From assembly GCF_963667135.1 (NCBI RefSeq), contig NZ_OY762974.1, positions 3,472,001 through 3,536,000 of the forward strand: a stretch of 64,000 nucleotides of DNA, in the 5' to 3' direction. A model generated the notes under the pieces. The model had not been told where the DNA came from and did not search any database. It was given only the letters and a program-made list of their open reading frames with translations. A program made the translations under genes and the position numbers. Positions 2,621-12,463 of this stretch are shown here, in pieces. Position 1 is the stretch's first letter, and each line of letters starts with the position of its first letter. Origin of the DNA: an uncultured Macellibacteroides sp. GTDB taxonomy: Bacteria; Bacteroidota; Bacteroidia; Bacteroidales; Tannerellaceae.

Positions 2621-3424
2621 ATGATAAAAAAAGGTTTTTATTTAGGCTTAGGTATCAGTTTATTGCTTACTGGTTGTGATTTAATAGAGTATCATCCCTA
2701 TGATGTCCGGATAGACGGAGAAACGGGAATCAATGTAAAGAATATAGAAAGGATTGAGAATGCATGCGAAGGAAAAGATACAATTCGCTTTGCGTTTATG
2801 GGCGATTCACAGCGTTGGTACGATGAAACATCCGATTTTGTAAAACATGTAAACAGTCAGGATAGCATCGATTTTGTTATTCACGGAGGTGATATTTCCG
2901 ATTTTGGGATAACAAAAGAATTTCTTTGGGTACGTGATATCATGTCGGGCTTGCATGTTCCTTATGTGGCATTGATTGGCAATCACGATATCTTAGGCAA
3001 TGGCAAAGAGGTGTTCGAACGGGTTTACGGCGACGAGAACTTCTCTTTTGTTGCCGGAGACACAAAGTTTGTATGCATGAATACGAATGCGCTTGAATAC
3101 GATTACTCGCATCCGGTTCCCGATTTTAAATTTATAGCTGAAGAGATGACTGATACGATGGCCTTTTCAAAAACGGTTGCTGTAATGCATGTGAAGCCAT
3201 TCGATGATCAGTTTAACAATAATGTCGCACCTCTTTTTCATGCAGAAATTAAAAAGTATCCATCCTTACAGTTTGCTTTACACGCACATAATCATAGATT
3301 ACAGGTTACAGATGCGTTTAATGATGGGTTGCTTTACTATGGTTGTGCCTCGATGAAAGAAAGAAATTATATGGTATTCACACTAACACCTGAGGGATAT
3401 AGTTATGACGTGGTCAATTTTTAA
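2621..3424 (+). CDS. Calcineurin-like metallophosphoesterase lipoprotein
   Basis: Predicted surface or periplasmic phosphoesterase. The N-terminus is a lipoprotein signal with lipobox LLTGC (Cys19). Metal-binding motifs appear in order: GDSQ (D62), GGDISD, GNHD, a lone H in MHVKP, and HAHNH near residue 225. The first motif has Gln where the classical DxH has His, a variation tolerated in some branches. Substrate unknown. The last 20 bases overlap the next gene, and three envelope genes run together to 6590, so they are probably one operon serving the cell surface. Confidence 0.85.
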   Translation: MIKKGFYLGLGISLLLTGCDLIEYHPYDVRIDGETGINVKNIERIENACEGKDTIRFAFMGDSQRWYDETSDFVKHVNSQDSIDFVIHGGDISDFGITKEFLWVRDIMSGLHVPYVALIGNHDILGNGKEVFERVYGDENFSFVAGDTKFVCMNTNALEYDYSHPVPDFKFIAEEMTDTMAFSKTVAVMHVKPFDDQFNNNVAPLFHAEIKKYPSLQFALHAHNHRLQVTDAFNDGLLYYGCASMKERNYMVFTLTPEGYSYDVVNF

Positions 3425-4040: not shown

Positions 4041-6590
4041 ATGTACCATAAATATATTTCATTACTTATTATTTTATTGGTTGGTGGTTCCCTTTTTTCT
4101 CAGACTAATGCGCAGACATCCGTTAAAGGACTGGTTACAGATTCTATAACAGGTGAAGGATTGCCTTTTGTCTCAGTCTTCCTGAAAGGATCAACACAAG
4201 GAACAACGACAGATGCAGATGGATATTTTGCATTTGCAAGTCCGTCGAAGTCGGCTACCTTAGGTTTTTCATATCTTGGTTATAACGAAAAGTTTGTTCA
4301 GTTAAAATCCCGGAAAGATAACAATTTGAATGTAGAGCTTGCTCCAACATCCTATACGCTGGAGGAAGTTGTAATCAAGCCGGGAAAAGAGAAGTATGTG
4401 AAGAAAGGTAATCCTGCCGTAGCATTTGTTAAACAGGTAATTGAATCGAAAGATGCCAATAATCCCCGCAATCATGACTTTTATAATTACGAACGTTACG
4501 AGAAGATGACTTTTGCGCTGAATAACTTTAGTGAGGAAAAGCGTAAAAAAGGATTGTTCAAGAAGTTCGATTTTCTTCAGAATTATGTTGATACGTCCAG
4601 TGTGACCGGGTTGCCAATCCTTAATATTTCAGTAAAAGAAGCATTGGAAGAAGTATATTACCGGAAAAATCCGAGTGATGAAAAAAGGGTAATCACAGGA
4701 ATTAAACGTTCAGGTATTGATGAGGTATTTTCGGAAGAAGGAGTGCAGCAGTTCTTGAAAGAAGTACTTAAAGATGTGGATTTATTTAAGAACGACATAC
4801 CCCTTTTTTTAATTCGTTTTGTTAGTCCGTTGTCAACCATGGGACCTTCGTTCTATAAGTATTACTTAATGGACACGGTGCAAGTTAATGGCACTAAATG
4901 CATGGATTTGGGTTTTGTGCCCTTTAATTCCGAATCATTTGGTTTTACGGGACATCTCTACATTACGTTGGACTCAACCCATTTCGTCAAACGGGTTAAG
5001 TTGCAAGTACCTAAAGACATCAACCTGAACTTTGTGGATGGGATGACGATAGATCAGGAATACGACAGAGCGCCCGATGGTACTCGTTTACTTATCCGGG
5101 ATGATATTGCAGTGTCCTTTAAACTTACTGCGAAGTCCGACGGATTACATGCCAGAAGAACCGTAACGTATAAAAATCATTCGTTTGAACAGCCGTCAGA
5201 TTTATCCGTATTTGGAAAATCCGGATCAGTTATCGAACTGGCTGAAGCAAAATATAAAGACAATAAATTCTGGAAAGAAAACAGGCATGTTCCAATCGGA
5301 GAAAAGGAAAAAGCGGTAGATGCCATGCTTGCCCAATTACGGGAAGTTCCTTTATTCTTTTACACCGAACAGGTTGTTAAAGCCCTGGTTTCGGGTTATA
5401 TTCCAACAGCAATCAAAGGAAGTAAAATTGATATTGGACCAATGAATACTTCGATAAGTGGAAATGCGGTAGAGGGAATGCGTTTTCGCGCAGGAGCAAC
5501 TACAACTACTCATTTGAATGACCGATTGTTTGCCGATGGATACGTTGCTTACGGAACAAAAGATGATAAGCTTAAATATTCTGCAGGAGTCGAATACTCT
5601 TTTATTGATAAAAAAGAGCATCCCAACGAGTTTCCTGTTCATTCTGTAAGGGCAGAATATCAATACGATATTAATCAACTGGGGCAACATTATCTGTATA
5701 CCAATATGGATAATATGTTCCTTTCGATTAAACGAAAGAAAGACGATCGGATAACTTATCTCAGGAAAGCCGAACTGAGTTACAACCGCGAATATCAGTC
5801 CGGGTTATCCTATGGAGCAACCCTTCGGCATAAAACGGAATCGGCCACTTCCTATGTTCCGTTTATAGAGACAAGTTCGGATGGAATGATCAGGCCTGTT
5901 ATTGATTATTCAATGACCGAGATGGAATTTCGCTTGCGATTTGCTCCGGGCGAAAAATTCTACCAGACCAGAAACCATCGTATTCCAATTACATTCGATG
6001 CCCCGGTGTTTTCACTTAGTCATATTGTTGCAAGGAAAGGACTGATGGGAACCGATTATAATTATAACCGTACGGACTTTGGTTTTCAGAAAAGAGTCTG
6101 GTTTTCTGCCTATGGATACACCGATATTATCTTGAAAGCAGGTAAAATTTGGGATAAAGTGCCTTTCCCTTTGCTTATGATTCCAAATGCAAACTTGTCC
6201 TATACGATTCAGTATGAATCCTATGCATTAATGAATGCGATGGAATTTCTTAACGATCAGTATCTGTCCTGGGATGTAACCTACTTTGTAAATGGGGCAT
6301 TGCTTAACCGTATTCCGTTGATAAAGGAATTGAGGTGGAGGGAAGTCCTTTCTTTCAGAGGTCTGTATGGCGATTTGAGTGATAAGAACAATCCGGCATA
6401 TAGCGATGGACTGTACTTATTCCCGGAGGGATCGTACAAAATGGATAACAAGCCTTATATGGAAGTGGGAGTAGGGGTAGAAAATATATTTAGATTTCTT
6501 CGTTTCGACTATGTATGGAGGTTAACATACCGCGATCTGCCTGATGTAGACACAAGCGGGCTTCGGGTAAGTTTTCATTTTACATTTTAA
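4041..6590 (+). CDS. DUF5686 outer-membrane protein with carboxypeptidase-D-like N-terminal domain
   Basis: An 849-residue outer-membrane protein. A signal peptide ends near residue 24 (SQTNAQ). Residues about 28-110 form the carboxypeptidase-regulatory-like beta-sandwich (VKGLVTDSITGEGLPFVSVF) seen at the start of many SusC-like receptors. The rest is the long Bacteroidota DUF5686 region, ending in a barrel with terminal SFHFTF. Unlike SusC it has no evident plug domain or SusD partner. It is the last gene of the 2.6-6.6 kb operon. Role unknown; export or envelope assembly is a guess from location only. Confidence 0.85.
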   Translation: MYHKYISLLIILLVGGSLFSQTNAQTSVKGLVTDSITGEGLPFVSVFLKGSTQGTTTDADGYFAFASPSKSATLGFSYLGYNEKFVQLKSRKDNNLNVELAPTSYTLEEVVIKPGKEKYVKKGNPAVAFVKQVIESKDANNPRNHDFYNYERYEKMTFALNNFSEEKRKKGLFKKFDFLQNYVDTSSVTGLPILNISVKEALEEVYYRKNPSDEKRVITGIKRSGIDEVFSEEGVQQFLKEVLKDVDLFKNDIPLFLIRFVSPLSTMGPSFYKYYLMDTVQVNGTKCMDLGFVPFNSESFGFTGHLYITLDSTHFVKRVKLQVPKDINLNFVDGMTIDQEYDRAPDGTRLLIRDDIAVSFKLTAKSDGLHARRTVTYKNHSFEQPSDLSVFGKSGSVIELAEAKYKDNKFWKENRHVPIGEKEKAVDAMLAQLREVPLFFYTEQVVKALVSGYIPTAIKGSKIDIGPMNTSISGNAVEGMRFRAGATTTTHLNDRLFADGYVAYGTKDDKLKYSAGVEYSFIDKKEHPNEFPVHSVRAEYQYDINQLGQHYLYTNMDNMFLSIKRKKDDRITYLRKAELSYNREYQSGLSYGATLRHKTESATSYVPFIETSSDGMIRPVIDYSMTEMEFRLRFAPGEKFYQTRNHRIPITFDAPVFSLSHIVARKGLMGTDYNYNRTDFGFQKRVWFSAYGYTDIILKAGKIWDKVPFPLLMIPNANLSYTIQYESYALMNAMEFLNDQYLSWDVTYFVNGALLNRIPLIKELRWREVLSFRGLYGDLSDKNNPAYSDGLYLFPEGSYKMDNKPYMEVGVGVENIFRFLRFDYVWRLTYRDLPDVDTSGLRVSFHFTF

Positions 6591-6760
6591 TGAAAGCAAA
6601 CAGGTTAACACCAATCCCGATAAGTATATAATTATGAAAGAGATTTAAAAAAACTCTTTTATATTAGAATATTTTATAATTTTGTGTTGTATGTAAGACT
6701 CATAATACCTGGAAATATACATTTAACTTTTTCGGATAGGATGATGAATTTACTGATAAC

Positions 6761-6823
6761 GACTTTTGGAACACAATTGAAGAAAAACAGACTAGGTAAC
6801 TTAAATGCTTTATAGTACTTTTG
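6761..6823 (+). promoter_or_regulatory. Promoter region of the inositol operon
   Basis: TACTTTTG at 6816-6823 fits the -7 consensus. The element at 6761-6791 (GACTTTTGGA...AAACAGA) resembles the one at 2533. A second TAnnTTTG match lies at 6677-6684. No good -33 TTTG is present at the usual distance, so an activator may be needed. Nothing else is seen in 6591-6918. Confidence 0.5.
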
Positions 6824-6918
6824 TCCCCTGTTTTCCCAGTTTCAGTTTAGTATATATTAATTAGTTTCTTTTTGAATCATAAATATTTTTTTGGATCAAA
6901 TTTAATGAATAAAAGAAA

Positions 6919-8217
6919 ATGAAATTAGAAGTTAAACCAGCTAGCGGCAAGCTAGGTGTATTGGTCGTTGGAGTAGGAGGGGCAGTATCCTCCACTTTTA
7001 TCGTGGGAACTTTAGCTGTAAGAAAGGGATTAGCTACCCCTATCGGTTCAATCACACAGTTGGCAACTATGCGATTGGGAAAACGAAACGAAAACAAATT
7101 CCCTAAAATAAAAGATATTGTTCCTTTGGCAACATTGGATGATATTGTTTTTGGCGGATGGGATATTTTCCCGGAAGATGTATACGAAGGTGCTGTTCAT
7201 GCAGAAGTGTTGAATCAAAAAGACCTGGAAGGCGTAAAAGATGAACTGAAAGCAATTAAGCCGATGAAGGCAGCTTTCGATCAGAACTTTGTAAAACGGT
7301 TACATGGTACCCATGTAAAGGAAGCAGCTACCCGTTGGGAATTGATGGAACAGGTTCGCGAAGATATCCGGAACTTTAAGGCAGCGAACAATTGCGAACG
7401 TGTGGTTGTTATATGGGCTGCAAGTACCGAGATATATCTTCCGCTGGGCGAAGAGCATAAAACACTGGAAGGATTACGCAAGGCGATGAAGGACAATAAT
7501 GTTGAGCAAATTGCACCAAGTATGTGTTATGCGTATGCCGCTATAGCCGAAGGCGCTCCATTCATTATGGGTGCTCCAAACTTATGTGTTGATATGCCTG
7601 CTATGTGGGACTTCTCCAAAGAGATGAATGTGCCAATCTGTGGAAAAGACTTTAAGACCGGTCAGACTATGTTGAAAACGGTTTTGGCTCCGATGCTTAA
7701 AACCCGTATGCTGGGTCTCGACGGCTGGTTCTCTACAAACATTCTGGGCAACCGTGATGGCGAAGTATTGGACGATCCGGATTCATTTAAAACCAAAGAA
7801 GTAAGTAAGCTTTCTGTAATTGATACTATACTTCAACCGGAATTGTATCCTGAATTATACGGAAATATATATCATAAGGTGCGTATTAACTATTATCCTC
7901 CCCGCAAAGATAACAAAGAAGGTTGGGATAATATCGACCTTGTAGGCTGGATGGGATATCCAATGCAGCTGAAAGTGGATTTCCTTTGTCGTGATTCAAT
8001 ACTTGCAGCGCCGCTTTGTCTCGACTTGGTATTGTTTGCAGATTTAGCTTTGCGATGCAATTTTTCGGGTATTCAAGGTTGGTTGTCTTTCTATTTCAAG
8101 AGTCCTATGCACGACCTTGAACATGTGCCGGAACACGACTTGTTTATCCAGTATATAAAACTAAAAAATACATTGCGTTCTATTATTGGAGAAGAGACGC
8201 TGGACTATATTGATTAA
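6919..8217 (+). CDS. ino1: Inositol-3-phosphate synthase
   Basis: Cytosolic NAD-dependent enzyme that converts glucose-6-phosphate to inositol phosphate, the committed step to inositol lipids. The 432 residues start with a Rossmann loop (LGVLVVGVGGAVSSTF) and contain the family stretches NTLRS and KDFKTGQTM near the active site. Length fits bacterial homologues. It heads an operon with a nucleotidyltransferase, an ATP-grasp protein, a CDP-alcohol phosphotransferase and a HAD phosphatase, so its product most likely feeds a CDP-inositol route. A hairpin with T run separates it from the next gene, which suggests more transcript for this first gene than for the rest. Confidence 0.93.
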   Translation: MKLEVKPASGKLGVLVVGVGGAVSSTFIVGTLAVRKGLATPIGSITQLATMRLGKRNENKFPKIKDIVPLATLDDIVFGGWDIFPEDVYEGAVHAEVLNQKDLEGVKDELKAIKPMKAAFDQNFVKRLHGTHVKEAATRWELMEQVREDIRNFKAANNCERVVVIWAASTEIYLPLGEEHKTLEGLRKAMKDNNVEQIAPSMCYAYAAIAEGAPFIMGAPNLCVDMPAMWDFSKEMNVPICGKDFKTGQTMLKTVLAPMLKTRMLGLDGWFSTNILGNRDGEVLDDPDSFKTKEVSKLSVIDTILQPELYPELYGNIYHKVRINYYPPRKDNKEGWDNIDLVGWMGYPMQLKVDFLCRDSILAAPLCLDLVLFADLALRCNFSGIQGWLSFYFKSPMHDLEHVPEHDLFIQYIKLKNTLRSIIGEETLDYID

Positions 8218-8246
8218 GTTTTTTAATTATATATTACAATAGTAAC

Positions 8247-8294
8247 AAAAACCTTTGAAGGCATAGAGTTGATTTCTTCGCCTTCAGGGTTTTT
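8247..8294 (+). terminator. Intra-operon terminator/attenuator
   Basis: The left arm 8247-8262 (AAAAACC then TTTGAAGGC) pairs with 8280-8294 (GCCTTCAGGGTTTTT) and ends in a T run. It lies between ino1 and the nucleotidyltransferase gene, so it should lower expression of the downstream genes relative to ino1. Confidence 0.75.
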
Positions 8295-8321
8295 GTTTGT
8301 ATATTATTTTATTCTTATTTT

Positions 8322-9017
8322 ATGAAATATGCTATAATAGCAGCAGGTCTTGGATCGCGTCTGCAATCGGAAGGAGTATCTTTGCCTAAGCCTCTTGTAA
8401 AACTTGGCGGTGAAGCGATGATAGACAGGTTGATTCGTATTTTTTTGGCTAACAACGCTGAATCTGTAAGTGTTATTGTAAACGAAGAAATGAAAGAAGT
8501 TCAGGAGCATTTGCAAGCACTTTCGTTGCCTGTGCCCCTGCATTTGGTTGTTAAAAGTACGCCAAGCTCCATGCACAGCTTTTTTGAACTTTCTCAAACG
8601 CTGGCCGGAGGTAAATTCTGTTTAACGACAGTTGATACGATTTTTAAAGAGGAAGAGTTTTCCGATTATATTAAAGCATTTGAAACCGATTTGACAAGCG
8701 ATGGCCTGATGGCCGTAACAGACTACATTGATGATGAAAAGCCTCTTTACGTTGTTACAGACAACGCATTGGCTATAACAGACTTTCGTGATACGTATTA
8801 TGCTGAGGCAAAATACATATCAGGAGGGATATACTGCTTAAATCAATCAGGTATTGATACCTTACGGGCATCCATGGAGGCGGGAGTATCGCGAATGCGT
8901 AATTATCAACGGAGATTAGTTACACACGGTCTTAAGTTAAAAGCATATCCATTCACAAAAATAATCGATGTCGATCATGCAGAAGACATCGAAAAGGCAG
9001 AAAAATTTATATACTAA
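8322..9017 (+). CDS. Nucleotidyltransferase, probable inositol-phosphate cytidylyltransferase
   Basis: 231 residues with the sugar-nucleotidyltransferase fold. The N-terminal loop AAGLGSRL and the following LPKPLVKLGG are the nucleotide- and phosphate-binding signatures, and TTVD near residue 104 is the likely metal site. From its place between inositol-phosphate synthase and a CDP-alcohol phosphotransferase I infer that it makes CDP-inositol, as the analogous enzyme does in archaeal di-inositol-phosphate synthesis. Another nucleotide or alcohol cannot be excluded. It lies 15 bases ahead of the ATP-grasp gene. Confidence 0.8.
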   Translation: MKYAIIAAGLGSRLQSEGVSLPKPLVKLGGEAMIDRLIRIFLANNAESVSVIVNEEMKEVQEHLQALSLPVPLHLVVKSTPSSMHSFFELSQTLAGGKFCLTTVDTIFKEEEFSDYIKAFETDLTSDGLMAVTDYIDDEKPLYVVTDNALAITDFRDTYYAEAKYISGGIYCLNQSGIDTLRASMEAGVSRMRNYQRRLVTHGLKLKAYPFTKIIDVDHAEDIEKAEKFIY

Positions 9018-9032
9018 TCATTGTTCAGATAA

Positions 9033-9902
9033 ATGAAAGAAAATAGAATTGCCGGCATTGTTCGGGGCAACTGTTATTCACCCAATCATGTGGGAAACGA
9101 TGCGGCTGTTTTCAATGAGACTGTTCGCCATTTAGAGGCAGCAGGATACCAGGTAACTACGTATACCGAAGAAGATGTGTTAAACCGTGAGGTTAAGGAA
9201 CAAGTCATCTTTACAATGGCAAGAAGCAAAGAAGTCGTAGAAAAGTTAAAGAATTACGAAGACGAAGGTCGAGTGGTAGTTAATTCTGGTTACGGAACAT
9301 CCAACTGTACCCGCGAACAGATGACAAGGTTACTGATCGATAACCATATCCCTCACCCAAGAAGTATAATAACACCTACAGTCGGACATTCAATTTCAGA
9401 AAAATTAAAAGCCGAAGGGATGGACAACTGCTGGATTAAGCGAGGAGATTTTCATGCCATCCACCGTGAGGATGTTACCTATGTACGTCACATCGAGGAA
9501 GCTAAAGGAATAATAAACGAATATGCACTGCGTGGAATTTCGAGCGCGGTGATAAACGAACACCTTGTAGGCGATTTGGTTAAGTTTTACGGCGTAGCAG
9601 GAACCGATTTCTTCTATTGGTTTTATCCGTTTAATATGAACCATAGTAAATTTGGTCACGAACAGATCAATGGAAAAGCAATAGGCATCCCATTCTCTGT
9701 TACCGATATGCACCAAATATGCGAAAGAGCAGCCCAGGTGTTGCGGGTTAAAATCTATGGAGGAGACTGTATCATTTCTCCCGAAGGTGAAATCAGAATC
9801 ATCGATTTTAACGACTGGCCAAGCTTTGCACCTTGCAGAGAACAGGCTGCTCCCGAAATAGCTCGTTGTATTATTGAATGTGGTAAGGAAAAACTGAAAT
9901 GA
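9033..9902 (+). CDS. ATP-grasp family protein of the inositol operon
   Basis: 289 residues. The C-terminal half shows ATP-grasp features: a nucleotide-binding lysine in CWIKRGD, a hinge-like VINEHLVGDLVKFYGV, and the metal ligands in IIDFNDWPSFAPCREQA. The N-terminal half looks like a pre-ATP-grasp domain with NSGYGTSNCTREQM. ATP-grasp enzymes join a carboxylate to an amine, thiol or hydroxyl through an acyl phosphate, so this protein may decorate the inositol product with an amino acid or other acid. Its stop overlaps the next start (ATGA). I know of no characterised member in such a setting, and the substrate is unknown. Confidence 0.75.
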   Translation: MKENRIAGIVRGNCYSPNHVGNDAAVFNETVRHLEAAGYQVTTYTEEDVLNREVKEQVIFTMARSKEVVEKLKNYEDEGRVVVNSGYGTSNCTREQMTRLLIDNHIPHPRSIITPTVGHSISEKLKAEGMDNCWIKRGDFHAIHREDVTYVRHIEEAKGIINEYALRGISSAVINEHLVGDLVKFYGVAGTDFFYWFYPFNMNHSKFGHEQINGKAIGIPFSVTDMHQICERAAQVLRVKIYGGDCIISPEGEIRIIDFNDWPSFAPCREQAAPEIARCIIECGKEKLK

Positions 9903-10813
9903 AAGAAGAAATAAAATCTACGCTTAAGTCGATGGATACCGAGGAATTTATTGACTTGGTATTTTATCGCCCGATAGGCTATTTATGGGCAAAATTGTTT
10001 GAAAAGCTAAATGTTACGCCCAATGCCGTTAGTGTCGCTTCCATATTTTTAGGCGTAGCAGCCGGGATCTTGTTTTATTTCGACGATCTTAGTTATACCA
10101 TTCCGGGTATCTTATTACTTATTTGGGCAAATTCATTTGATAGCGCAGATGGGCAGCTAGCCCGTATGACGGGACAATACTCCAGACTGGGCCGTGTTCT
10201 CGATGGCGTTTGTGGTGATATCTGGTTTATCACAATTTATGCAGCTATCTGTTTACGGCTAACCCCCGAGTTTGGTATATGGATATGGGTACTTGGAGCT
10301 GCAGCAGGCTATTTTCATAGTATGCAGGCATCCATGGCCGATTACTACAGAAACTTCCATCTCTATTTTCTAAAAGGGAAAAAGGGCAGCGAGCTCGAAG
10401 ACTCCTCAGTGCTGGTAGCCAGAAACAGTGAAATAACATGGAAGTCGGATCCGGTCGAGAAGTTCTTTATGTTCTTTTATGTACCCTATACACAAAATCA
10501 GGAAAAGCGTACAACCAAGATGCAACAGTTCCGGAGCACACTTCGCAATGTGTACGGCGACCAGGAGATTCCTCAGTGGTTACGCGACATGTTCCGTGCA
10601 AAGAGCAAGCCATTAATGAAATATACAAACATACTCTCATTCAATACCCGGGTGATAGCGCTGTTTATTTCATTGCTAATCAATATACCCTGGCTCTATT
10701 TTGTGTTCGAATTAACCGTGCTGAATATCCTTTTGGTGTATATGCGTACAACCCACGAGAAAATTTGTACGGAGACTGAATCTATTGTCTTACAGAAAGA
10801 AAACAACGTATGA
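9899..10813 (+). CDS. CDP-alcohol phosphatidyltransferase family membrane protein
   Basis: 304-residue membrane enzyme that transfers a phospho-alcohol from a CDP-activated donor. The family motif is visible as D81-x2-D84-G85-x2-A88-R89-x8-G98-x3-D102. The fourth Asp, expected at 106, is Gly, with Asp at 107 instead. Several membrane helices surround it, and a soluble stretch (about 160-245) is inserted in the middle, making it longer than ordinary phosphatidylinositol synthases of about 200 residues. It overlaps both neighbours by ATGA. Likely reactions are condensation of CDP-inositol with an acceptor alcohol, or of CDP-diacylglycerol with inositol phosphate. Confidence 0.85.
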   Translation: MKEEIKSTLKSMDTEEFIDLVFYRPIGYLWAKLFEKLNVTPNAVSVASIFLGVAAGILFYFDDLSYTIPGILLLIWANSFDSADGQLARMTGQYSRLGRVLDGVCGDIWFITIYAAICLRLTPEFGIWIWVLGAAAGYFHSMQASMADYYRNFHLYFLKGKKGSELEDSSVLVARNSEITWKSDPVEKFFMFFYVPYTQNQEKRTTKMQQFRSTLRNVYGDQEIPQWLRDMFRAKSKPLMKYTNILSFNTRVIALFISLLINIPWLYFVFELTVLNILLVYMRTTHEKICTETESIVLQKENNV

Positions 10814-11511
10814 TTAAAGGATTGATATTTGACTACGGAGCCACCATCGATTCGAACGGAAAGCATTGGGCCGAAGTTATCTGGGAACAATATGTTGCTG
10901 CCAAAGTACCCGTTACCAAACAGCAATTCAGAGCCGCCTATGTGTATGCTGAAAGAGCGCTTGCCGTAAATCCGTACATAAAGCCCGAAGACAACTTCCG
11001 TCAGCTTATGCTGGTTAAGATAAAGCTGGAGTTCGATTATTTACTGAATGAAGCAATTCTTGGACCCGATGATGCCTGGAACGAAACTATAAAAGCCATT
11101 GCAGAGGGATGCTATCAGGAAGCTAAACACACGGTAGCAGAGGCAATAAAGACATTAAAGATATTGTCCGAACGCTATCCCATGGTATTGGTTTCCAATT
11201 TTTATGGAAACATACAGGCGGTACTTGCCGATTTTGGTGTCGATTCATTCTTCCCCTCAATCATCGAATCGGCCATAGTAGGCGTGAGAAAACCCGATCC
11301 GGCCATCTTTATGTTGGGCGTGGAGGCACTTAATCTAAAGCCATCCGAAGTAATGGTTATCGGAGACTCTTACCGAAAAGACATCCAGCCGGCTCAATCC
11401 ATCGGATGCGAAACCATATGGATAAAAGGAATCGGATGGGATGAGTCGGAAGATAAAATTGATCATCCCGCCATCATTACAGACTTCTCCGAACTCTGCA
11501 ACCTGCTATAA
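10810..11511 (+). CDS. HAD-superfamily phosphatase
   Basis: 233-residue cytosolic HAD hydrolase. Motif I is FDYGAT (nucleophile D8). The usual second Asp is Gly, as in many Bacteroidota paralogues. Motif II is VLVSNF, the motif III lysine is in GVRKPDP, and motif IV is VIGDSYRKD. It ends the inositol operon and starts inside the phosphotransferase gene (ATGA). The natural guess is removal of the phosphate left on an inositol-phosphate-containing product, the last step in both phosphatidylinositol-phosphate and di-inositol-phosphate pathways. Confidence 0.85.
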   Translation: MIKGLIFDYGATIDSNGKHWAEVIWEQYVAAKVPVTKQQFRAAYVYAERALAVNPYIKPEDNFRQLMLVKIKLEFDYLLNEAILGPDDAWNETIKAIAEGCYQEAKHTVAEAIKTLKILSERYPMVLVSNFYGNIQAVLADFGVDSFFPSIIESAIVGVRKPDPAIFMLGVEALNLKPSEVMVIGDSYRKDIQPAQSIGCETIWIKGIGWDESEDKIDHPAIITDFSELCNLL

Positions 11512-11521
11512 TAACACAGGA

Positions 11522-12463
11522 CTATTGCCTGCCTCTTCTGTATTCGGCCGGCGATAGTCCTGCATGTTTTTTGAAAAACTTTCCGAATGTAGATTGATTT
11601 GCAAAACTTAGCATATCCGAAACTTGCTGAACAGTGGCGTTCGGAGCCTTTAGCATCACTTTAGCATCCAGAATAAGCGAATTATCAATCCAGTTGTTCG
11701 TTGTCTTTCCAGTCAGATCTTTCAATATCGCAGACAAATACTGAGGCGAAATGCAAAGTTTATTTGCATAAAAGCTAACGGCATGCTGTTCGCGGTTATG
11801 TTTGAATAGCAACTTCAGAAACTGTTGGAACAGCTCCTCCTTACGCGACAGCACAACAGGAACTATATCGTTTTTCTGGAAGATTATATTTTTCAGTTCA
11901 AAAAACAGATGAAACAAAAGAGACTGTATGGCTTCTTTATGAAACAAATGATTTTTTACTTCAGCCCTCTTTCTAATCAATCTAAACAATGAGCCAATCA
12001 CCTTTACCTCGTCTTCATCCAGTTTAGCCGAAGGATTCTTTCGCAGAAACATATATTGAAGCGAGTCGTCCGTATCCCCCACTGGCCTTAACGAGTTTAC
12101 CAGAAAATCTTTCGAAATAACCAGGATTTGCCCTTCTATGTCGGGCGTATGGGAGCAAAACTCCACAATATGATCCGGCAAAGTAAAAAACAGCGAATTC
12201 TTTTTTATTTCAAATTTGACGTAATCAATATTTACCGTCAGACTACCTTTTGTAACAAGAATGAAGCAGATTCCATTAATCCGGACATTCATTGGATTGT
12301 CTACGTCCCTTTCTACATGCATGCAAGCCTCATTACAATCCTCCGGCTCACCAAATTTAGACTCAAGAGTTTCAATTACTAAATCGTTCGGAAAAGCATG
12401 TGGATGCCCTATTATTTCATTAATAAGTAAAATATCGACGAATGGTAAATCTTTCGGCTTCAT
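11522..12463 (-). CDS. AraC-family transcriptional regulator
   Basis: 313 residues. The C-terminal 100 residues carry two helix-turn-helix units (YANKLCISPQYLSAILKDLT and VSDMLSFANQSTFGKFFKKH) followed by the family's SPAEYRR ending. The N-terminal 170 residues look like a cupin-type sensor (GSLTVNIDYVKFEIKKNSLF). It converges on the inositol operon and diverges from a small outer-membrane protein gene. The 13-bp inverted repeat in the shared upstream region is the obvious candidate operator. The ligand is unknown. Confidence 0.9.
   Translation of the reverse strand: MKPKDLPFVDILLINEIIGHPHAFPNDLVIETLESKFGEPEDCNEACMHVERDVDNPMNVRINGICFILVTKGSLTVNIDYVKFEIKKNSLFFTLPDHIVEFCSHTPDIEGQILVISKDFLVNSLRPVGDTDDSLQYMFLRKNPSAKLDEDEVKVIGSLFRLIRKRAEVKNHLFHKEAIQSLLFHLFFELKNIIFQKNDIVPVVLSRKEELFQQFLKLLFKHNREQHAVSFYANKLCISPQYLSAILKDLTGKTTNNWIDNSLILDAKVMLKAPNATVQQVSDMLSFANQSTFGKFFKKHAGLSPAEYRRGRQ

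Follow-up and report, generated by a model that had tools for sequence, protein, structure and literature searches.

An inositol operon of an uncultured Macellibacteroides sp. with a constant, MIPS-linked ATP-grasp enzyme that resembles inositol phosphate kinases

What an ATP-grasp enzyme does among genes for CDP-activated inositol, and which compound such genes make, are the questions raised by a locus of an uncultured Macellibacteroides sp., contained in a stretch of 64,000 nucleotides (contig NZ_OY762974.1, positions 3,472,001 to 3,536,000; hereafter the window). Here the genes of a myo-inositol-3-phosphate synthase (MIPS), a nucleotidyltransferase, the ATP-grasp enzyme, a CDP-alcohol phosphotransferase and a HAD-superfamily hydrolase follow one another on the + strand of a genome assembled as one contig of 4.46 Mb, with gaps of 104, 15, -4 and -4 bases (Table 1); the single five-gene run described in the original prediction, which had been made from the letters of the window alone, is therefore present as described. 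The reading that we prefer, with a probability of roughly 0.45, is that this operon makes an inositol phospholipid, likely a phosphoinositol (dihydro)ceramide, via CDP-activated inositol, with the ATP-grasp enzyme acting as a kinase akin to the ATP-grasp inositol-phosphate kinases (ITPK).

Part of this reading has been anticipated. Heaver et al. 2022 (PMC9246714) predicted in Bacteroides vulgatus and Prevotella an "alternative inositol lipid cluster", with a nucleotidyltransferase, a CDP-alcohol phosphotransferase and a HAD hydrolase near MIPS, and proposed CDP-inositol by analogy with hyperthermophiles; a 2023 review (PMC10191378) restates this prediction, and a 2025 review (PMC12482443), where it touches on the subject, mentions just a variant route in Prevotella. 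Phosphoinositol dihydroceramide (PI-DHC) was detected in B. vulgatus and P. veroralis, the phosphotransferase and the HAD hydrolase being fused in the latter (PMC9246714). The four genes that characterize the alternative cluster are found together here as well, thus the CDP-inositol chemistry of the original prediction, still the best reading and drawn mainly from gene context, is an already published prediction and not new. The published locus tags (RS13095 for the nucleotidyltransferase, RS13105 for the phosphotransferase and RS13115 for the HAD hydrolase; PMC9246714) are spaced so that a single further gene would fit after each of the first two, and B. graminisolvens L036 has the order MIPS, nucleotidyltransferase, ATP-grasp, phosphotransferase, LPG_synthase_TM, HAD; taken together, the two suggest that B. 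vulgatus probably has the same cluster as the one described here. However, the main text of Heaver et al. names no ATP-grasp gene ("ATP-grasp" has 0 occurrences in it), and no role for the ATP-grasp gene of such clusters was found in the open-licence literature searched, preprints not being covered. The new part is a constant, MIPS-linked, kinase-like ATP-grasp member together with a phosphotransferase that breaks its family signature.

The matter is of some weight: inositol lipids of B. thetaiotaomicron influence capsule, peptide resistance and host fitness (PMC9246714), and the alternative route is common in Prevotella, with no enzyme confirmed so far according to the passages on it in PMC9246714, PMC10191378 and PMC10056535, and with one constant enzyme, the ATP-grasp protein, that had no stated role.

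The ATP-grasp gene belongs to the inositol pathway and is tied to MIPS. In an order sample of 149 genomes it was found in 18 and MIPS in 23, all of the 18 lying within the 23 (Fisher 4.8e-19, relatedness of the genomes being ignored); weaker or partial cases among the 18 are G111 (57.6 bits, within a fusion), whose MIPS match contains one internal stop, and G137 (at a contig end). Three of the five MIPS genomes without the ATP-grasp gene (G059, G105 and G124) have a weak CDP-alcohol phosphotransferase match no more than 3 kb from MIPS, which is consistent with the B. thetaiotaomicron type of cluster. A phylum sample of 395 genomes gave 28 genomes passing E<=0.001, of which 15 (at least 203 bits) were counted as true and 13 (at most 29.4 bits, frames of ~470-545 aa) were dropped; MIPS is present in 13 of the 14 true cases other than the source genome, so that 31 of the 32 ATP-grasp genomes of both samples pooled carry it. 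The exception, G440, has the nucleotidyltransferase, ATP-grasp, phosphotransferase, LPG_synthase_TM and HAD genes and no MIPS match; a PfkB sugar kinase, a candidate inositol kinase, adjoins its HAD gene (L240:5117-6040, - strand), as if inositol phosphate were made there from inositol. Regular occurrence of the downstream genes without the synthase had been named as a threat to the original prediction. A same-strand MIPS is absent in 20 of 48 roomy loci, but at the level of the genome the link survives.

Gene order was surveyed in 80 named loci, the best 80 of 578 confirmed ATP-grasp relatives: the nucleotidyltransferase lies directly upstream of the ATP-grasp gene in 72 of the 79 loci with room, and the phosphotransferase directly downstream in 76 of 77. 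The closest named record among the matches listed is a Parabacteroides metagenome-assembled genome (L020) with a 100% identical ATP-grasp gene. Nucleotidyltransferase and ATP-grasp form a single open frame in two genomes of different families, G023 (513 aa) and G111 (509 aa), which together with the phosphotransferase/HAD fusion of P. veroralis supports neighbouring steps for the fused partners. Close HAD relatives (E<=1e-25) occur in 22 of 23 genomes with the ATP-grasp gene and in 0 of 17 without it, the latter being hand-chosen rather than random and relatedness again being ignored. Tandem ATP-grasp genes of this family were seen in four genomes of one family (L236, L237, L238 and G324:C4:50863-52505).

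This constancy bears on the published scheme, in which the nucleotidyltransferase makes CDP-inositol from inositol 3-phosphate (Ins(3)P), the phosphotransferase makes phosphoinositol diacylglycerol (PI-DAG) from diacylglycerol, the HAD protein converts PI-DAG into PI-DHC, and the ATP-grasp enzyme would be an accessory, dispensable for the core route. In its favour are PI-DHC in two species that have the cluster and the fusion of phosphotransferase and HAD protein (Heaver et al. 2022, PMC9246714). However, the ATP-grasp gene is nearly equal in constancy to those of the nucleotidyltransferase and the phosphotransferase and is fused to the former in two genomes, a HAD protein acting as phosphodiester transferase would be unusual for the fold, and a PI-DAG intermediate is made less likely by B. 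vulgatus, in which phosphoinositol ceramide (Cer-PI) was found but diacyl-PI was not detected (PMC10056535); we thus hold this scheme to be distinctly unlikely. Nucleotidyltransferase matches of at least 169 bits were found in 17 of the 149 genomes of the order, and 16 of these have the ATP-grasp gene. The seventeenth, G039, contains only a truncated nucleotidyltransferase-phosphotransferase remnant and lacks MIPS, ATP-grasp and HAD. This fusion (L162:620-1897) was considered as proof that the ATP-grasp enzyme is dispensable and rejected: the frame runs from the end of the nucleotidyltransferase into the middle of the phosphotransferase, with the whole ATP-grasp gene and the D1, D2 and AR residues of the phosphotransferase signature missing, Pfam detects the nucleotidyltransferase only, and the frame is probably what a deletion left behind, or else a fault of the assembly.

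Is the ATP-grasp enzyme a kinase or a ligase? The protein has the ATP-grasp fold, an ATP-binding lysine and a metal-binding acidic residue plus asparagine, and Lys136, Lys184, Asp258 and Asn260 are invariant in 96 of 96 sequences and likewise in a broader set of 32. When the family profile was compared to all PDB sequences the best match was Entamoeba ITPK (1.5e-7), which was also best for the broader profile (1.3e-6); plant ITPK4 and human ITPK1 were among the matches too (ITPK structures 1z2n, 7pup and 2odt). Profile-profile comparison by hhalign gave a probability of 95 and scores of 59-60 against two ITPK stretches and a probability of 73-79 against Entamoeba ITPK alone. Against 20 RimK proteins the probability was 14-21 with scores of 30-32 (1.5-39 for six single RimK proteins), and against the Ddl of the same genome (L181) it was 13-14 with a score of 30, both at the background level of RimK against ITPK (21-23, score 31); the ligase side of these comparisons consisted of RimK and this Ddl. 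Moreover, the RimK family model TIGR00768 gives 16.1 bits, far under its cut-off of 143.4. Judged by these sequence comparisons, the enzyme appears to resemble ITPK kinases more than ligases of the RimK or Ddl kind, with PsnB close in the broader profile search, and a kinase is somewhat favoured over an acid ligase.

The latter had been the original prediction, in which the enzyme adds an amino acid or another acid; the inositol head group would then carry it as an amide or an ester. The fold is closest to Ddl and LysX/RimK, PsnB and ArgX are among the profile matches, single family members give weak matches to RimK-type models, and some distant clusters hold an aminotransferase and an inositol-dehydrogenase-like gene that could supply an amine to acylate. 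Against it stand the RimK and Ddl comparisons just given, an operon that has no amine-making gene in the window, and the lipid of B. vulgatus, which bears the published alternative cluster and makes plain, unmodified PI-DHC, although modified forms are not excluded there (PMC9246714). On balance the proposed ligation is not supported and rather unlikely.

Several observations weigh against an ITPK-like kinase as well. The Pfam ITPK model PF05770 matches 0 of 33 family members at E<=0.1 and, in the source genome, misses the ATP-grasp gene even at E<=10, its match being elsewhere. Fold comparison places Ddl (Foldseek) or LysX/RimK (VIA-align) at the top, with no ITPK among the 50 matches listed for either program, and the runner-up in the broader profile search is an ATP-grasp ligase, PsnB (6.5e-6). 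The ITPK match itself consists of three short weak segments, one of them out of register, and the alignment of Lys184 on the ITPK lysine appears in one hhalign comparison and not in another. The Asp-x-Asn motif was considered as a mark of kinases and rejected, the Ddl of the same genome having D-I-N; searches of that genome with RimK and Ddl models gave 3 and 8 matches, and in the five of these loci used as ligase-type controls the motif occurs once, the other four having E-x-N (by reading, two biotin-carboxylase-like and two carbamoyl-phosphate-synthase-like proteins). Finally, G139 has a divergent ATP-grasp copy in a cluster of the B. thetaiotaomicron type (L174), composed of GtrA, a PIP-synthase-like gene (NF052561, 272.1 bits, cut-off 350), a PI-DHC synthase (NF052609, 486.3 bits, cut-off 480), MIPS and ATP-grasp, in which no close relative of the nucleotidyltransferase, phosphotransferase or HAD protein was found. 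The cluster of B. thetaiotaomicron itself (BT_1522-BT_1526) is likewise a MIPS-led route to inositol lipids in Bacteroidota, but uses CDP-diacylglycerol, PIP synthase, PIP phosphatase and PI-DHC synthase.

The ITPK-like kinase, which we still prefer, would stand with genes of inositol-phosphate synthesis. ITPKs have been reported in eukaryotes and Lokiarchaeota (PMC8024741), and plant ITPK4 carries a HAD-like domain (PMC7614388), which might be seen as a loose parallel to the pairing of ATP-grasp and HAD genes.

As for the other enzymes, MIPS far exceeds its Pfam cut-offs (Table 1) and is the single match in its genome. The best NCBIfam model for the nucleotidyltransferase is NF041135, which describes a bifunctional Thermococcales inositol-phosphate cytidylyltransferase (IPCT)/DIPPS protein, at 45.7 bits, under the cut-off of 580, and its best PDB match by profile search is 4jd0. 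Residues R13, K23 and D105 are invariant in 23 sequences and correspond to R16, K26 and D112 in the active site of the Thermotoga maritima enzyme (PMC12275187), with the same spacing of 10 between Arg and Lys; these residues are also common to other cytidylyltransferases. The phosphotransferase has the fold and the PF01066 domain of its family, whose signature is D1xxD2G1xxAR...G2xxxD3xxxD4 with D4 as the likely catalytic base. It retains D1-D3, the glycines and AR, whereas Gly takes the place of D4 in 96 of 96 sequences that contain the motif, the 97th being truncated, and thus the pattern GX3DX3D quoted for the alternative cluster (PMC9246714) is unmatched in its last residue. D4 is likely the base, a D93N variant is nearly inactive, and the signature has been called absolutely conserved (PMC4634129); the missing catalytic Asp is by itself a testable exception.

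The source genome has a phosphotransferase paralogue, 45% identical, at a second locus (L155, C1 ~4,294,900-4,298,900), next to a glycerol-3-phosphate cytidylyltransferase-like gene (under its NCBIfam cut-off), an SDR, an LPG_synthase_TM and an acyltransferase gene; along similar lines, this locus could produce a lipid of the phosphoglycerol type. A third phosphotransferase group (L159, L160 and L161) retains the fourth signature Asp and adjoins a further nucleotidyltransferase and a gene resembling aminotransferases (by Pfam in L159).

Of 75 members of the HAD family, one is truncated and 74 have DYGGT, DYGAT or DFGGT as motif I, so the DxD of the motif is absent; S129, K161, D186 and D191 are conserved in every one, or almost every one, of 25 sequences. 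The lack of the second motif-I Asp in all 74 readable proteins, an Asp expected of many phosphatases, is a further point against a pathway that ends with a phosphatase. Some active HADs also lack this residue.

The proposed pathway uses all five genes. MIPS, by family assignment, would convert glucose-6-phosphate into Ins(3)P; the ATP-grasp enzyme, as an ITPK-like kinase, would add a further phosphate to the inositol phosphate; the nucleotidyltransferase, in line with the published prediction, would couple the inositol phosphate to CTP; the phosphotransferase would take over the CDP-bound phospho-inositol, or phospho-inositol-phosphate, and attach it to the hydroxyl of a lipid, probably to that of ceramide directly; and the HAD protein would remove the spare phosphate monoester. 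To run a kinase and then a phosphatase seems wasteful, which counts against the proposal unless the position of the linkage changes; the kinase/HAD pair might do just that, linking the lipid at D-1 instead of at D-3, where MIPS places its phosphate. In its full form, in which Bacteroidota own an ITPK-like kinase of lipid synthesis, the MIPS product is phosphorylated, the second phosphate is CDP-activated, the D4-less phosphotransferase delivers to ceramide and the HAD protein clears the phosphate, the proposal is possible but doubtful. If it were true, a genuine inositol bisphosphate step, and possibly sphingolipids resembling phosphoinositides, would exist in bacteria, and the inositol kinases of ATP-grasp type in eukaryotes and Lokiarchaeota would gain bacterial relatives. 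Should the ATP-grasp enzyme indeed phosphorylate inositol phosphate, a step is missing from the published scheme, the stereochemistry of the linkage needs to be reconsidered, and the ITPK-like kinases acquire a branch in bacteria.

An inositol-bearing membrane lipid is the favoured and very probable product because Mla lipid-transport genes occur in some related clusters and because PI-DHC is found in B. vulgatus and P. veroralis. Of the alternatives left open by the original prediction, lipid or soluble phosphodiester, the first is thus retained and the second less favoured. Direct transfer of phospho-inositol to ceramide, not via PI-DAG, is suggested because B. vulgatus shows Cer-PI with diacyl-PI not detected (PMC10056535). 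Among 12 distant clusters, 10 of them from outside the class, seven have MlaE/F/D-type genes between nucleotidyltransferase and ATP-grasp and seven an aminotransferase plus a GFO/IDH-type dehydrogenase, as judged by Pfam in L237 only and by length and first residues elsewhere; the dehydrogenase of L237 is nearest to inositol 2-dehydrogenase, under the cut-off of that model. These clusters point to a transported membrane lipid, and those with the aminotransferase and dehydrogenase possibly to an amino-inositol head group. A soluble phosphodiester osmolyte, such as di-myo-inositol phosphate, is the product of the hyperthermophile IPCT/DIPPS system (2xme, 4mnd, 4jd0), in which CDP-inositol is made and used and to which the nucleotidyltransferase and phosphotransferase described here correspond in fold and profile, IPCT-DIPPS and T. 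maritima IPCT being among the structural and profile matches. However, the Mla and LPG_synthase_TM genes of some related clusters and the PI-DHC of species with the published cluster (PMC9246714) make such a product very improbable here.

Table 1. Features of the inositol operon and its surroundings, in window positions.
Feature	Position	Strand	Basis
MIPS, myo-inositol-3-phosphate synthase, 432 aa	6919..8217	+	NAD_binding_5 (PF07994) 357.6 bits (cut-off 25), Inos-1-P_synth (PF01658) 115.1 bits (cut-off 27)
Hairpin followed by T-rich stretch between MIPS and nucleotidyltransferase, possible terminator/attenuator	8239..8302	+	folding of 8215-8325
Nucleotidyltransferase, probable inositol-phosphate cytidylyltransferase, 231 aa	8322..9017	+	Pfam NTP_transf_3/NTP_transferase
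ATP-grasp enzyme, ITPK-like, candidate inositol-phosphate kinase, 289 aa	9033..9902	+	ATP-grasp fold; profile matches to ITPK
CDP-alcohol phosphotransferase with Gly in place of the fourth signature Asp	9899..10813	+	fold and PF01066
HAD-superfamily hydrolase of 233 aa with DYGAT as motif I, lacking its second Asp	10810..11511	+	PF00702 66.7 bits
CarboxypepD_reg + DUF5686 protein, upstream, possible neighbour only	4041..6590	+	PF13715 and PF18939

A strong hairpin with a T-rich tail (-27.7 kcal/mol, z -5.07) sits in the 104-base gap, so that the four genes behind it may be partly uncoupled from MIPS. A simple terminator scan, with 7 sites compared to 4.7 in shuffles, did not list this hairpin; Rfam gave no family at E<=0.5 across 6500-11700, hairpin included, and a promoter scan found no excess of sites (11, compared to 13.0 in shuffles). 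The CarboxypepD_reg + DUF5686 protein upstream resembles BT_1527 by domain only, and each of the two published inositol clusters has a carboxypeptidase-regulatory-like gene close by (Heaver et al. 2022, PMC9246714). Further upstream are a calcineurin-like phosphoesterase (2621-3424) and a large membrane protein that by reading resembles an ion-pumping pyrophosphatase (119-2323). At the other end, an AraC-type regulator (11522-12463, - strand) is convergent with the 3' end of the operon, and in L244 an AraC-type gene is likewise close to the nucleotidyltransferase and ATP-grasp pair.

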